Assembly: GCF_009917525.1 (NCBI RefSeq)
Contig: NZ_QZDU01000001.1
Span: 496,001-560,000 of the forward strand
Direction of reading: 5' to 3'
Length of the DNA stretch: 64,000 nucleotides
Source: Acutalibacter sp. 1XD8-36
GTDB taxonomy: Bacteria; Bacillota; Clostridia; Oscillospirales; Acutalibacteraceae
The notes below the pieces were generated by a model that was not told where the DNA came from, searched no databases, and saw only the letters and a program-made list of their open reading frames with translations. Both the position numbers and the translations under genes were made by a program. Positions 32,135-35,911 of the stretch are shown here, in pieces; position 1 is the first letter of the stretch; each line of letters starts with the position of its first letter.

Positions 32135-32794
32135 TACTCTTTCCCGCATTTGCCGCCGCAGGCTACAAAAAACTTTTCCATATACTCTTTGAGCCTGTCC
32201 TCTGCCGCCTGCCAGTCATAGCTCTGCACCGGGAAAATGCCGCCATCCTCTGTCACCTCTGCTACAGGCAGGGATATGCCTGTGCCCCACTCCTCGTCAT
32301 AGACCACAGTTTTAAACTGGATAGTGTCCAGCGCGTTTGCAATAGTATCGTTCACCATCGCCTTATAGCTTTTCAGCGCCCAGTCCGAGGCGCCGCCATG
32401 GGATATAATAGCCGCCGGCTTGCCGTACACCTCAGAGCGGTATCCGTTGTCCTTCCACCAGTGCAGGAAGGTTATCTCCTCCAACTTCTCCAGGAGCATA
32501 CAGAGCCTTGCTGGAATTGGCGCATAGTGCGGCGAAACAAAAACCGCTCCGTGCCGCGCTTATTAACTTCTCATAAAGTCCGTTAAAGGCCTCGTCATGG
32601 GCACAGCGCCTTGTAGAATAACAGCGCCCACAGCCTATACACGGCGACATACCATAATACAGCCGCAGGTCAATTATATCGCAGTTGACTCCCCGGCTGC
32701 TTAATATATCATCGACTCTGCCGCATATCTCCATCGAGACACTGCTCCCCCCGCTGTGAAGGATATTTGACGCGGATATGCAGATAACTTTCAT
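32131..32794 (-). pseudogene. flavodoxin-like NAD(P)H-dependent FMN reductase, frameshifted
   Basis: The N-terminal part starts at ATG 32794 (overlapping the rarA stop by four bases). It reads MKVICISASNILHSGG, SVSMEICGRVDD and CIGCGRCYSTRRC, in the style of iron-sulfur or cysteine-rich flavodoxin-family reductases. Near 32550 the frame changes. Before it the protein reads KLISAAR, and after it the expected continuation GAVFVSPHYAPIPARLCMLLEKLEEITF appears in the next frame (read in pieces) and runs to 32131. The shift equals one extra base or two missing bases. The two halves make one normal-length protein, so this is either a recent pseudogene or a sequencing error. Confidence 0.8.
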
Positions 32795-34137
32795 TTCTTC
32801 TCCCCATCCTCCTGCTCCCTGTGCCTGCGCTTCCACTCCTCTATCTGCCTAAGCCTCTCCCCGAATCTGGCCTCGCTCCCCTGGTTCGTGGGCTCGTAGT
32901 ACCTGCGGTCCTTTAAGGAGTCCGGCAAACACTGCATGGTGGTGAGCTTTTCCGCGTAGTCGTGGGCGTACTGGTAGCCCTTGCCGTAGTCCAGGTCCTT
33001 CATCAGGCGTGTGGGAGCGTTGCGGATAATGAGCGGCACCGGCTCCGCCAGCATTTTCTGGGCGTCGGCGGCGGCGGACATATATGCGGCTTCCGCGGCG
33101 TTGGATTTTGGTGCCAGGGACATATATATCACCGCATGGGTCAGATTCACATTGCACTCCGGCAGGCCGATAAAATGGCTGGCCTGGTACGCCGCCACAG
33201 CTATCTCCAAAGCGCGGCTGTCCGCAAGGCCGATATCCTCGCTGGCAAAGCGTATCAGCCGCCGGGCCACGTACAGCGGATCCTCTCCTGCCTCCAGCAT
33301 CCGGGCCAGCCAGTACACCGCCGCCTGTGGGTCGCTGTTGCGCATAGACTTGTGTAGGGCCGAGATAAGGTTATAGTGCTCCTCACCGTTTTTATCGTAT
33401 AATAAGGATTTTTTGTTTACGCACTGCTCCAGTATCTCCTGGGTTACGGTTATCCTGTCCTCCTGCCGCTGGGCGTTGAGCACCACCATCTCCAGCGTGC
33501 CCAGGGCAGTGCGGGCGTCGCCGTTGGCAAATCCTGCTATCATCCCCAGCATATCCTCGCTTATCTGCACATTCTGCCCGCCGAAGCCCCTGGGGTCTGT
33601 GAGGGTGCGGCTCAGAAGTGAGACCAGGTCCCCGGTGCTGAGCGACTGGAGCACAAACACCTTGCACCTGGACAGCAGAGCGGAGTTCACCTCAAACGAG
33701 GGATTTTCCGTAGTGGCCCCTATGAGCACGATACTCCCCTTCTCAACAAAGGGCAGGAAAGCGTCCTGCTGGGCCTTATTGAATCGGTGTATCTCGTCCA
33801 CAAAAAGTATGGTGCGCTCTCCCAGCATCCTGGTGCGGTCGGCCTCGTTCATGACCTCTTTTATCTCTTTAATGCCGCTGGTGACGGCGCTGAAATTGAT
33901 AAAATTTGACTGGGTGCGCCGGGCGATTATCCGGGCAAGGGTGGTCTTGCCAACCCCCGGCGGGCCCCAGAATACCATGGAGGGCACCCGGTCCCGGTCG
34001 ATAAGCAGGCGCAGTACCTTGCCCTCCCCCAGTAAATGCCGCTGTCCCGCGAACTCATCCAAGTCCCTGGGGCGCATACGGGTTGCAAGGGGTGTATCCG
34101 CCGGATTTCCTTCAAAAAACGTTGTCTGCCGGTCCAT
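32791..34137 (-). CDS. rarA: replication-associated recombination protein A (RarA/MgsA)
   Basis: 448 residues, AAA+ clamp-loader-like ATPase acting at stalled forks. ATRMRPRDLDEFAGQRHLLG near the start, Walker A FWGPPGVGKTTLARII (about 54-69), Walker B ILFVDEIHRFNKAQQDAFLP, sensor GATTENPSFEVNSALLSRC and the C-terminal MgsA tetramerisation block DAQKMLAEPVPLIIRNAPTR. GGAAGGAGG precedes the ATG. 21 bp after the AraC gene, so probably cotranscribed. Confidence 0.96.
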   Translation of the reverse strand: MDRQTTFFEGNPADTPLATRMRPRDLDEFAGQRHLLGEGKVLRLLIDRDRVPSMVFWGPPGVGKTTLARIIARRTQSNFINFSAVTSGIKEIKEVMNEADRTRMLGERTILFVDEIHRFNKAQQDAFLPFVEKGSIVLIGATTENPSFEVNSALLSRCKVFVLQSLSTGDLVSLLSRTLTDPRGFGGQNVQISEDMLGMIAGFANGDARTALGTLEMVVLNAQRQEDRITVTQEILEQCVNKKSLLYDKNGEEHYNLISALHKSMRNSDPQAAVYWLARMLEAGEDPLYVARRLIRFASEDIGLADSRALEIAVAAYQASHFIGLPECNVNLTHAVIYMSLAPKSNAAEAAYMSAAADAQKMLAEPVPLIIRNAPTRLMKDLDYGKGYQYAHDYAEKLTTMQCLPDSLKDRRYYEPTNQGSEARFGERLRQIEEWKRRHREQEDGEKK

Positions 34138-34158: not shown

Positions 34159-35061
34159 TTATGTGTCTGTGCGGTCTATATCCCCTGCCTCCCTGCGGTA
34201 CTGGCTGGGGGAACGGCCCGTGTGGGCCCGGAATACTTTTGCATAATATGACGGGTCTGTAAAGCCCGAAGCCTCCGCAGCCTCGGCAACCGAGGAGCCC
34301 GCCTTCAGGCTTGCAAGGCTCTTGCCCACCCTATAGTCTGAGAGATAGTCAAAGAGCGGCGTGCCCATCTGGCGCTTGAAAAACCGGCAGCACTCGCTTT
34401 TGCACAGCCCTACATGGGCGGCTATATCATCAAGAGTTATCCTGTCCGCATAATGCTCGTGGAGAAATGTAAGTATTTCCCGAAGCCGCCGGAGCTTTTC
34501 CGGGTCCTCATTCTGCCCCTTCTGTGACCGGCTGGGACAATGTGCAAATAGCTCTGCCCATACCTGCATAAAGCAGGACTGTACGAGCATTTCATATCCG
34601 TTTTCCCTGCCGCCGCAGAGCTCGTATATCTTATGCAGATACTCAAGTATGCCGGCCTGCCAGGGCACATCCGGCGACAGCAGTAGCGATGGCAGCCCCT
34701 GGCTCTCAAGGAGCGGCGACACATATTTTGAGCCTATTACACTGCCCTCGAAGCCGGAGAGCAGCCGGGGATGTACCGTTATAGATATGTAGTCACAGTC
34801 CCGAGCCTCCTGGAGGGCGCTGCCTGAGTGGAGGGCCCCGGAGTTGCAGAAAAGCCCCTGCCCTGCCGAAAGCTGGTAGCGGCTGTCGTTGACACGGTAC
34901 TCCATGCTACCCGAGGCGGCAAGGGTAAACTCAACCTCGTCATGCCAGTGCCAGGGAAATGAGCCGGTAGGGTACGCCGAAATCGGCTTGCGCCCTACGT
35001 ATACAGGGAAGCCGTAGGTGCCGTGCAGCTTCAGTTCCCGTTTCTGGCTGGTAAGTTCCAT
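34159..35061 (-). CDS. AraC-family transcriptional regulator
   Basis: 300 residues from ATG 35061, with GGGGAGGG upstream. Cupin sensor block SFPWHWHDEVEFTLAASGSMEY (two parts) and AGQGLFCNSGALHSG, then C-terminal tandem HTH DDIAAHVGLCKSECCRFFKRQMG and ASGFTDPSYYAKVFRAHTGRSP. It is divergent from the Fic-like gene, with a 15-bp perfect inverted repeat between the two promoters. It therefore probably regulates itself and that gene. rarA follows downstream. Confidence 0.9.
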   Translation of the reverse strand: MELTSQKRELKLHGTYGFPVYVGRKPISAYPTGSFPWHWHDEVEFTLAASGSMEYRVNDSRYQLSAGQGLFCNSGALHSGSALQEARDCDYISITVHPRLLSGFEGSVIGSKYVSPLLESQGLPSLLLSPDVPWQAGILEYLHKIYELCGGRENGYEMLVQSCFMQVWAELFAHCPSRSQKGQNEDPEKLRRLREILTFLHEHYADRITLDDIAAHVGLCKSECCRFFKRQMGTPLFDYLSDYRVGKSLASLKAGSSVAEAAEASGFTDPSYYAKVFRAHTGRSPSQYRREAGDIDRTDT

Positions 35062-35080: not shown

Positions 35081-35109
35081 ATTATACCCCAGGGCATAAA
35101 GAAAAGCAA
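35081..35109 (-). promoter_or_regulatory. promoter for the AraC regulator
   Basis: Minus strand: -35 TTGCTT, 17-bp spacer, -10 TATAAT. Its -35 lies seven bases from the inverted repeat. Confidence 0.75.
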
Positions 35110-35115
35110 GCCCGG

Positions 35116-35153
35116 AATATCTGCATATTTACCACAAGAAATATGCAGATATT
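35116..35153. promoter_or_regulatory. 15-bp perfect inverted repeat between two divergent promoters
   Basis: AATATCTGCATATTT, an 8-nt spacer, then AAATATGCAGATATT. It lies symmetrically between the -35 boxes of the two divergent promoters (both TTGCTT), so a bound dimer would affect both. Best explained as an operator for the adjacent AraC regulator. Confidence 0.7.
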
Positions 35154-35165
35154 TTCCGAAAAGCC

Positions 35166-35194
35166 TTGCTTTTGCAGGTTTATTTTGTTATGAT
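35166..35194 (+). promoter_or_regulatory. promoter for the Fic-like gene
   Basis: -35 TTGCTT, 17-bp spacer, -10 TATGAT, 25 bp before the ATG, which has AAAGGAGA upstream. Confidence 0.75.
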
Positions 35195-35218
35195 ATTTCC
35201 ACAAAAGGAGATGGGACT

Positions 35219-35911
35219 ATGCATAAATATGACTACTCGTTTTTGGAGAACTTCCCCCTGCCGGAAAACCTGAAAGGACTGCTCGCCTGTCTGAAGGGTA
35301 TGCAGGAAAAATATGAGCGCGAAGCCCGGGAACCCCGGCAGAAGGTCAAGTCAGAGCCTCCTGCCGCCCTGCCCGAACAGCTTCTGGCAGCATATGGGGC
35401 ATCCGGTGCTGAGCCGCTGCTGCTGGTCCCCTGTGTGGCGCTGGACATGCTGTGCTCCCTGCCTGAGGGTGAGGGCTCCATGCACGCCGCCATAGAGTTG
35501 GCCCTGGGGCTGCTATGCCAGTCCGGATATACCATGTGCAGACACTTCCCCCTGGAGGAAATGATATGTAGATATCTCTACTTCTACCGGCGGGCCTTTG
35601 ACCGTGCCAAATCTCACTGGGAGCAGAACGGCAGCGAGTATCTGTATTATATTGAGATGTTCCTGTCCCTGCTCTATCTCTGCGGGCAGGACAAGCCAAA
35701 AGCTCCGGCGGCTCCCCGGCGCAGTACCAAGCGCGCGGCCATTGAAGCGCTGGTACTCGGGAGCGAGGTTCCTATCTCCAAAGCCGAGATTTGCGCCGCG
35801 CTGCCGGATGTGAGCCCCACCACCGTTGAGGCGGCTCTGGGAGCTATGGTGCGCTCCGGGAGCGTGCGGAAGGTGGGGGCAGCCAGGGCCGCCCGGTACA
35901 TCAGGGCATAG
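35219..35911 (+). CDS. degenerate Fic-family protein with winged-helix tail (active site lost)
   Basis: 230 residues from ATG 35219. The N-terminus MHKYDYSFLENFPLPENL matches the start of Clostridium-type Fic proteins. A short Pro/Glu/Lys-rich linker (about 38-65) then replaces the roughly 110 residues that normally carry the inhibitory helix and the first half of the Fic fold. The remainder again follows Fic: LLLVPCVALDMLC, then LPEGEGSM where HPFxDGNGRM should be, then LLCQSGYTMCRHFPLEEMIC and the helical end. Last is the winged helix ISKAEICAALPDVSPTTVEAALG. The catalytic His and the nucleotide-binding GNGR are gone, so AMP transfer is not expected. A DNA-binding or protein-binding role is inferred. 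Confidence 0.75.
   Translation: MHKYDYSFLENFPLPENLKGLLACLKGMQEKYEREAREPRQKVKSEPPAALPEQLLAAYGASGAEPLLLVPCVALDMLCSLPEGEGSMHAAIELALGLLCQSGYTMCRHFPLEEMICRYLYFYRRAFDRAKSHWEQNGSEYLYYIEMFLSLLYLCGQDKPKAPAAPRRSTKRAAIEALVLGSEVPISKAEICAALPDVSPTTVEAALGAMVRSGSVRKVGAARAARYIRA

Follow-up and report, generated by a model that had tools for sequence, protein, structure and literature searches.

The closest described relatives of the protein reported here combine a Fic fold and a C-terminal helix-turn-helix (HTH) domain in one chain. CccR of Yersinia pseudotuberculosis, a class II Fic-HTH protein, represses its own gene independently of AMPylation as a dimer on a palindrome near the -35 and -10 elements, and both dimerization and repression require N13 and K175 (PMC9755527). 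It is nevertheless an active, secreted AMP-transferase with a catalytic motif and an inhibitory helix, and its operator is AGATAATCAT-N26-ATGATAATCT (PMC9755527). CbFic2 of Coxiella burnetii, a Fic core with a C-terminal winged HTH, is an active AMPylase/deAMPylase whose dimerization is induced by DNA and uses an interface helix at amino acids 17-41 (PMC10628234). In addition, Fic/Doc clades lacking key catalytic residues have been noted and another function suggested for them (PMC4454073). The protein examined here, pFic (pseudo-Fic/winged-helix protein), resembles those clades in being conserved without key catalytic residues, but they carry substitutions in otherwise normal Fic/Doc domains and were not accompanied by any operator or winged-helix argument. 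Unlike CccR and CbFic2, pFic has no active site; it is also much shorter than CccR, and its candidate operator is an upstream site only, placed between divergent promoters. The literature searched, mostly outside the subscription journals, yielded no description of a catalytically dead Fic lineage that persists for its regulatory role alone.

pFic is encoded on the plus strand by a 230-codon open reading frame (positions 35219-35911) of a 64,000-nucleotide stretch, the window, from the 3.2-Mb genome of the gut bacterium Acutalibacter sp. 1XD8-36 (G000). Neither Pfam nor NCBIfam called it a Fic protein; it lies below the Pfam gathering threshold for Fic (PF02661), with no Pfam Fic match at E <= 10, and the full-length dead relative from genome G009 scores 32.1 bits against the Fic cut-off of 24. 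We accept the kinship because a phmmer search of solved structures matched pFic residues 57-229 to a Fido protein (PDB 8uqu, E = 9.7e-13) and because orthologues from the genus and family align end to end; the trees likewise place pFic in common descent with live class II Fic-winged-HTH genes. The original prediction described a protein that follows Fic proteins at both ends, with about 110 central residues replaced by a short linker, the catalytic motif overwritten and the winged helix well kept, and each of these points was borne out. pFic is collinear with class II Fic proteins, and relative to an intact orthologue (G058) it is reduced from 348 to 230 residues, a net shortening of 118. What is retained comprises residues 1-32 (35219-35314, beginning MHKYDYSFLENFPLPEN), the C-terminal half of the Fic core (residues 61-155; 35399-35683) and the winged helix (residues 171-230; 35729-35908), while a linker of about 28 residues (residues 33-60; 35315-35398) takes the place of the region in which the inhibitory helix, helices of the Fic core and the beta-flap lay. 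The active AMP-transferase motif HxFx(D/E)GN(G/K)R with its catalytic His is absent from pFic, where LPEGEGSMH (35459-35485) aligns with HPFRDGNGR, and in the 8uqu match with HPFPDGNGR. At the C-terminus, ISKAEICAALPDVSPTTVEA is nearly identical to the SKAEIC..PD(I/V)SPTTVEA of intact enzymes, and (F/Y)DY(S/T)FL is retained in all family members with a complete N-terminal end. The intact clostridial class II orthologues (G058, G624 and others) are members of the same family, with the same operator half-sites, an FDYSFL N-terminus and an SPTTVEA recognition helix, but they have a live motif, a flap and a promoter-enclosing operator, all of which are absent from the dead clade.

The AlphaFold2 comparison with an intact Fic protein that had been proposed agrees with this picture: the pFic fold was predicted confidently (mean pLDDT 88.9, against 91.7 for the live G058 orthologue) and contains an N-terminal helix (residues 16-35), core helices and a winged helix (helices 171-181, 188-194 and 200-213; wing strands 216-219 and 226-229). 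The flap strands present in the live model are missing from that of pFic. Foldseek ranked Fic proteins first, followed by the winged helices of PerR, Zur and DIP2311, and whole Fic structures fitted poorly (TM 0.34-0.44 on the query), a result that the deletion leads one to expect. Helix 16-35 sits about where the CbFic2 dimer helix lies (amino acids 17-41, PMC10628234), and the retained parts include the N-terminal region corresponding to the CbFic2/CccR dimerization region; by analogy, pFic would also form dimers.

Orthologues of pFic were found in 14 of 29 genomes of the genus, with an open frame in every one. A column-by-column check showed that the catalytic His, the SxxxEG motif and the 22-residue beta-flap are missing from all 14, a count that includes two sequences ending at contig ends (G023 and G001); the flap columns are mostly gap across the dead proteins. 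The class II inhibitory helix (S/T)xxxE(G/N) is deleted in clade A, substituted in the other dead proteins and intact in live sisters. Homologues sharing the loss, on whose existence the original prediction had staked its case, are therefore present in 14 genomes, and the central deletion of pFic itself is common to four species (G000, G020, G010 and G003); other species carry different deletions. Remnants of the motif differ as well: nearly full-length proteins at locus II, one of two loci described below (G009, G025, G008 and G023), read xPFxPGGxR, and the rest are unrecognizable. The full-length G009-type protein, for example, reads CPFSPGGRR. No intact copy of the subfamily was found among the 29 genomes.

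In two tree builds the 14 dead proteins formed one clade (support 100/99) within the intact group, and an AU test rejected splitting them or placing either half with live genes (p 0.018 and 0.0014). Long branches flagged in the second tree make a single origin likely rather than certain. By gene names assigned by eye, nine genomes carry all or part of locus I (rarA-AraC / pFic / CRYCP-motif gene / bioY / birA) and five carry locus II (esterase genes / pFic / malQ-glycogen phosphorylase in several). Intact Fic genes are 94-97% identical across genomes of different families, which suggests recent horizontal spread; three of them (L106, L107 and L108) show this identity to the G058 gene (L058) across families f26, f21 and f14. 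In phage and plasmid collections the relatives were all live and distant, with identities no higher than 45%.

Upstream of the intact genes of this group, half-sites TCTGCATAT-N13/14-ATATGCAGA flank the -10 box on both sides in 25 of 28 orthologues, which come from many genera. These half-sites are the same as those at pFic. The -35 hexamer usually abuts the left arm on its 5' side, and 21 of the 28 have a second, more distal copy, usually 43-55 bp farther upstream. This is an autorepressor layout, of the kind demonstrated experimentally for CccR, whose palindrome is a different one. At a set of intact genes (L106-L119, L136-L143 and G058/G354/JAFGGL) the two palindromes are mostly 54-55 or 43-44 bp apart. 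Such distances are near whole helical turns, which suggests cooperative autorepression across this widespread clostridial Fic group.

Upstream of pFic, the inverted repeat mentioned in the original prediction is real: a candidate operator at 35116-35153, AATATCTGCATATTT-N8-AAATATGCAGATATT, has perfect 15-bp arms (35116-35130 and 35139-35153) and an 8-bp loop, and pattern searches found no other exact copy in the G000 genome. Between G000 and G010 the arms are the same at 30 of 30 positions, compared with 2 of 8 in the loop and 53 of 71 in other non-promoter intergenic positions (Fisher p 2e-4). In the three closest dead genes (G000, G020 and G010) the proximal copy is lost and the distal copy is kept at -99/-98 to -70 from the start codon, a position matching the distal copy of many live genes (about -101 to -70). 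At the level of sequence and model, pFic thereby has both features of a self-regulating Fic-HTH protein, a winged helix and a palindromic candidate operator at its own gene. The good ribosome-binding site and promoter that had been proposed were found in part: the ribosome-binding site AAGGAG (35205-35210) and the conserved probable -10 element TATGAT (35189-35194, 17-bp spacer) are as described, but the probable -35 element TTGCTT (35166-35171) matches consensus at only three of six positions and was not flagged by a promoter scan, yet it is kept in the closest species (G020 and G010).

Elsewhere in the clade the site is less regular. The right arm has decayed at the G003 gene, and at locus II, where there is no divergent AraC gene, candidate sites are degenerate or shifted. 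At the G002 and G013 genes (L055 and L067), the order of the half-sites is inverted (ATATGCAAA...TTTGCATAT); they lie just 3' of the -10 box, 29-44 bp before the pFic start, and are possibly a newly arranged candidate operator. We considered whether a shorter operator loop paralleled the protein deletion and dropped the idea, as loops among the dead genes are too variable. A search for further regulon sites in the G000 genome gave next matches with two to three mismatches, and we claim no further target because the control, a reversed pattern, likewise gave one match at every spacing. One near-operator, TCTGCAAATCGGGCAAACCCGATTTGCAGA (G000:C3:3047-3076, L179), has two mismatches and is nearly fully self-complementary; it may be unrelated. 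Genome G016 carries a second exact palindrome, CTGCATATAAAAATATATGCAG (G016:C2:335835-335856, L076), far from its pFic gene, and this is possibly another target in that genome.

On the other side of the palindrome lies a divergent gene for an AraC-family regulator (34159-35061, minus strand), followed on the same strand by a gene that we named by eye as rarA, encoding an AAA+ replication-associated recombination ATPase (32791-34137). The gap of 21 bp between them indicates that they are probably co-transcribed. The AraC gene has a probable -35 element TTGCTT (35104-35109, minus strand) and, across a 17-bp spacer, a probable -10 element TATAAT (35081-35086, minus strand), both conserved. The palindrome begins 6 bp past this -35 element and ends 12 bp short of that of pFic. 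We set aside the weak -35 hexamer as a sign of activation, since the AraC promoter of G027, which has no operator, also has TTGCTT. The AraC gene is present in 16 of 29 genomes of the genus and adjoins pFic in six of the eight syntenic genomes with upstream sequence; at AraC genes without an adjacent pFic gene, the palindrome was absent from all nine with upstream sequence. In G003 the AraC gene is located elsewhere, away from pFic. Of the six species retaining the divergent pairing, only three have the full palindrome, G007 having a half-site and G002 and G013 the rearranged site.

These arrangements can be combined into a mechanism. The ancestor would have been a Fic-winged-helix enzyme, spread horizontally, whose strong promoter it kept repressed itself by way of a palindrome around the -10 box; another copy of the palindrome would have lain about 55 bp upstream. 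The genus then lost the catalytic His, the SxxxEG helix, the target-docking beta-flap and the promoter-blocking operator copy, and it retained the winged helix, a portion of the core and the N-terminal (dimer) helix. In the window species, the distal palindrome that remains (35116-35153) would be bound by a homodimer of pFic, which from this position would act on two promoters facing outward, one for pFic and one for the AraC-rarA operon. Because the center of this site lies about -66 (pFic) and -60 (AraC) from the presumed start points, an activator or co-regulator would fit better than the old promoter-blocking repressor, and pFic is most likely one of the former. The lack of the palindrome at AraC genes without an adjacent pFic gene, and its decay in G003, suggest AraC-rarA as the target; this is the weakest step, given that only three of six pairings have the full palindrome and that locus II has no AraC gene. 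In its fullest form, the proposal is that a mobile, self-repressed Fic gene was domesticated in one genus as a vertically inherited, bidirectional activator of a chromosomal AraC-rarA operon, and that we advance only tentatively, as something that may well not hold in all its parts.

Alternatively, pFic might control its own gene only, acting from the distal site without any effect on AraC-rarA. The ancestor was probably self-regulating, and at locus II, with no divergent AraC gene present, a site is still found 5' of the promoter of some orthologues, so that AraC cannot be the sole reason for the operator. On the other hand, no full palindrome is left where the AraC gene has moved away (G003 and G026), and an enzyme-less protein serving only itself would hardly be kept under selection as strong as that described below; we regard this explanation as unlikely.

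The original prediction had left the choice between a regulator and a partner protein, and of these the regulator is favored by the conserved candidate operator. A partner would act like an antitoxin, forming a heterodimer that inhibits an intact Fic protein, and its winged helix would serve autoregulation only. Class I Fic toxins do use separate inhibitors, and G000 encodes another nearly intact Fic protein (G000:C63, HPFNDGNDR). That protein, however, belongs to a distant Fic group, and a search of the 14 genomes with dead genes for a co-occurring partner found a comparably strong full-length Fic in G000 alone. Moreover, a partner of this kind would depend on the inhibitory motif, the very element that pFic has lost. 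We regard this role as very improbable. The G000:C63 gene (103412-104449; L002, L078) has Asp for the second Gly of GNG, and the activity of its product is uncertain.

The claim that this is not a dying gene was supported by a codon model applied to the four species with the deletion seen in pFic (G000, G020, G010 and G003), which showed purifying selection and not neutral decay. Overall omega was 0.143, and omega = 1 was rejected (p about 1e-49). By segment, omega was 0.23 for the N-terminus (p 1e-4), 0.26 for the linker, 0.164 for the Fic remnant (p 2e-16) and 0.033 for the winged helix, with omega = 1 rejected in each. Pairwise dS reached about 1, and therefore neutral decay would have destroyed the pFic frame. 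In a comparison of dead with live proteins that amounts to one phylogenetic contrast rather than many independent ones, 34-40 of 62 winged-helix residues match the live reference in dead proteins and 37-46 of 62 in other live proteins, whereas identity of the Fic core falls from 67-80% in live to 23-39% in dead proteins. Judged from these alignments, the DNA-binding domain has stayed under almost the same constraint and the enzyme part is reshaped. The least probable explanation, that pFic is a decaying relic whose winged helix is simply the slowest part to erode after activity was lost, could draw on the collapsed core identity and on progressive deletions that differ among species, but it is countered by the lack of any stop or frameshift in the 14 orthologues, by omega well below 1 in all segments including the linker and Fic remnant, and by palindrome arms that stayed unchanged though the loop diverged. 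We consider it likely that in pFic a class II Fic AMP-transferase has become a dedicated, non-catalytic DNA-binding transcription regulator.

Because Fic-HTH proteins join an enzyme to a DNA-binding domain, they raise the question of which part natural selection preserves. Here one lineage has shed the enzyme and maintained the DNA-binding part until synonymous sites neared saturation. The two-site operator of the live family provides a concrete model of autorepression for a class II Fic group that is widespread in clostridia, and the living intermediates (full-length dead, partly deleted and strongly deleted proteins) mean that the steps from enzyme to transcription factor can be ordered and tested.
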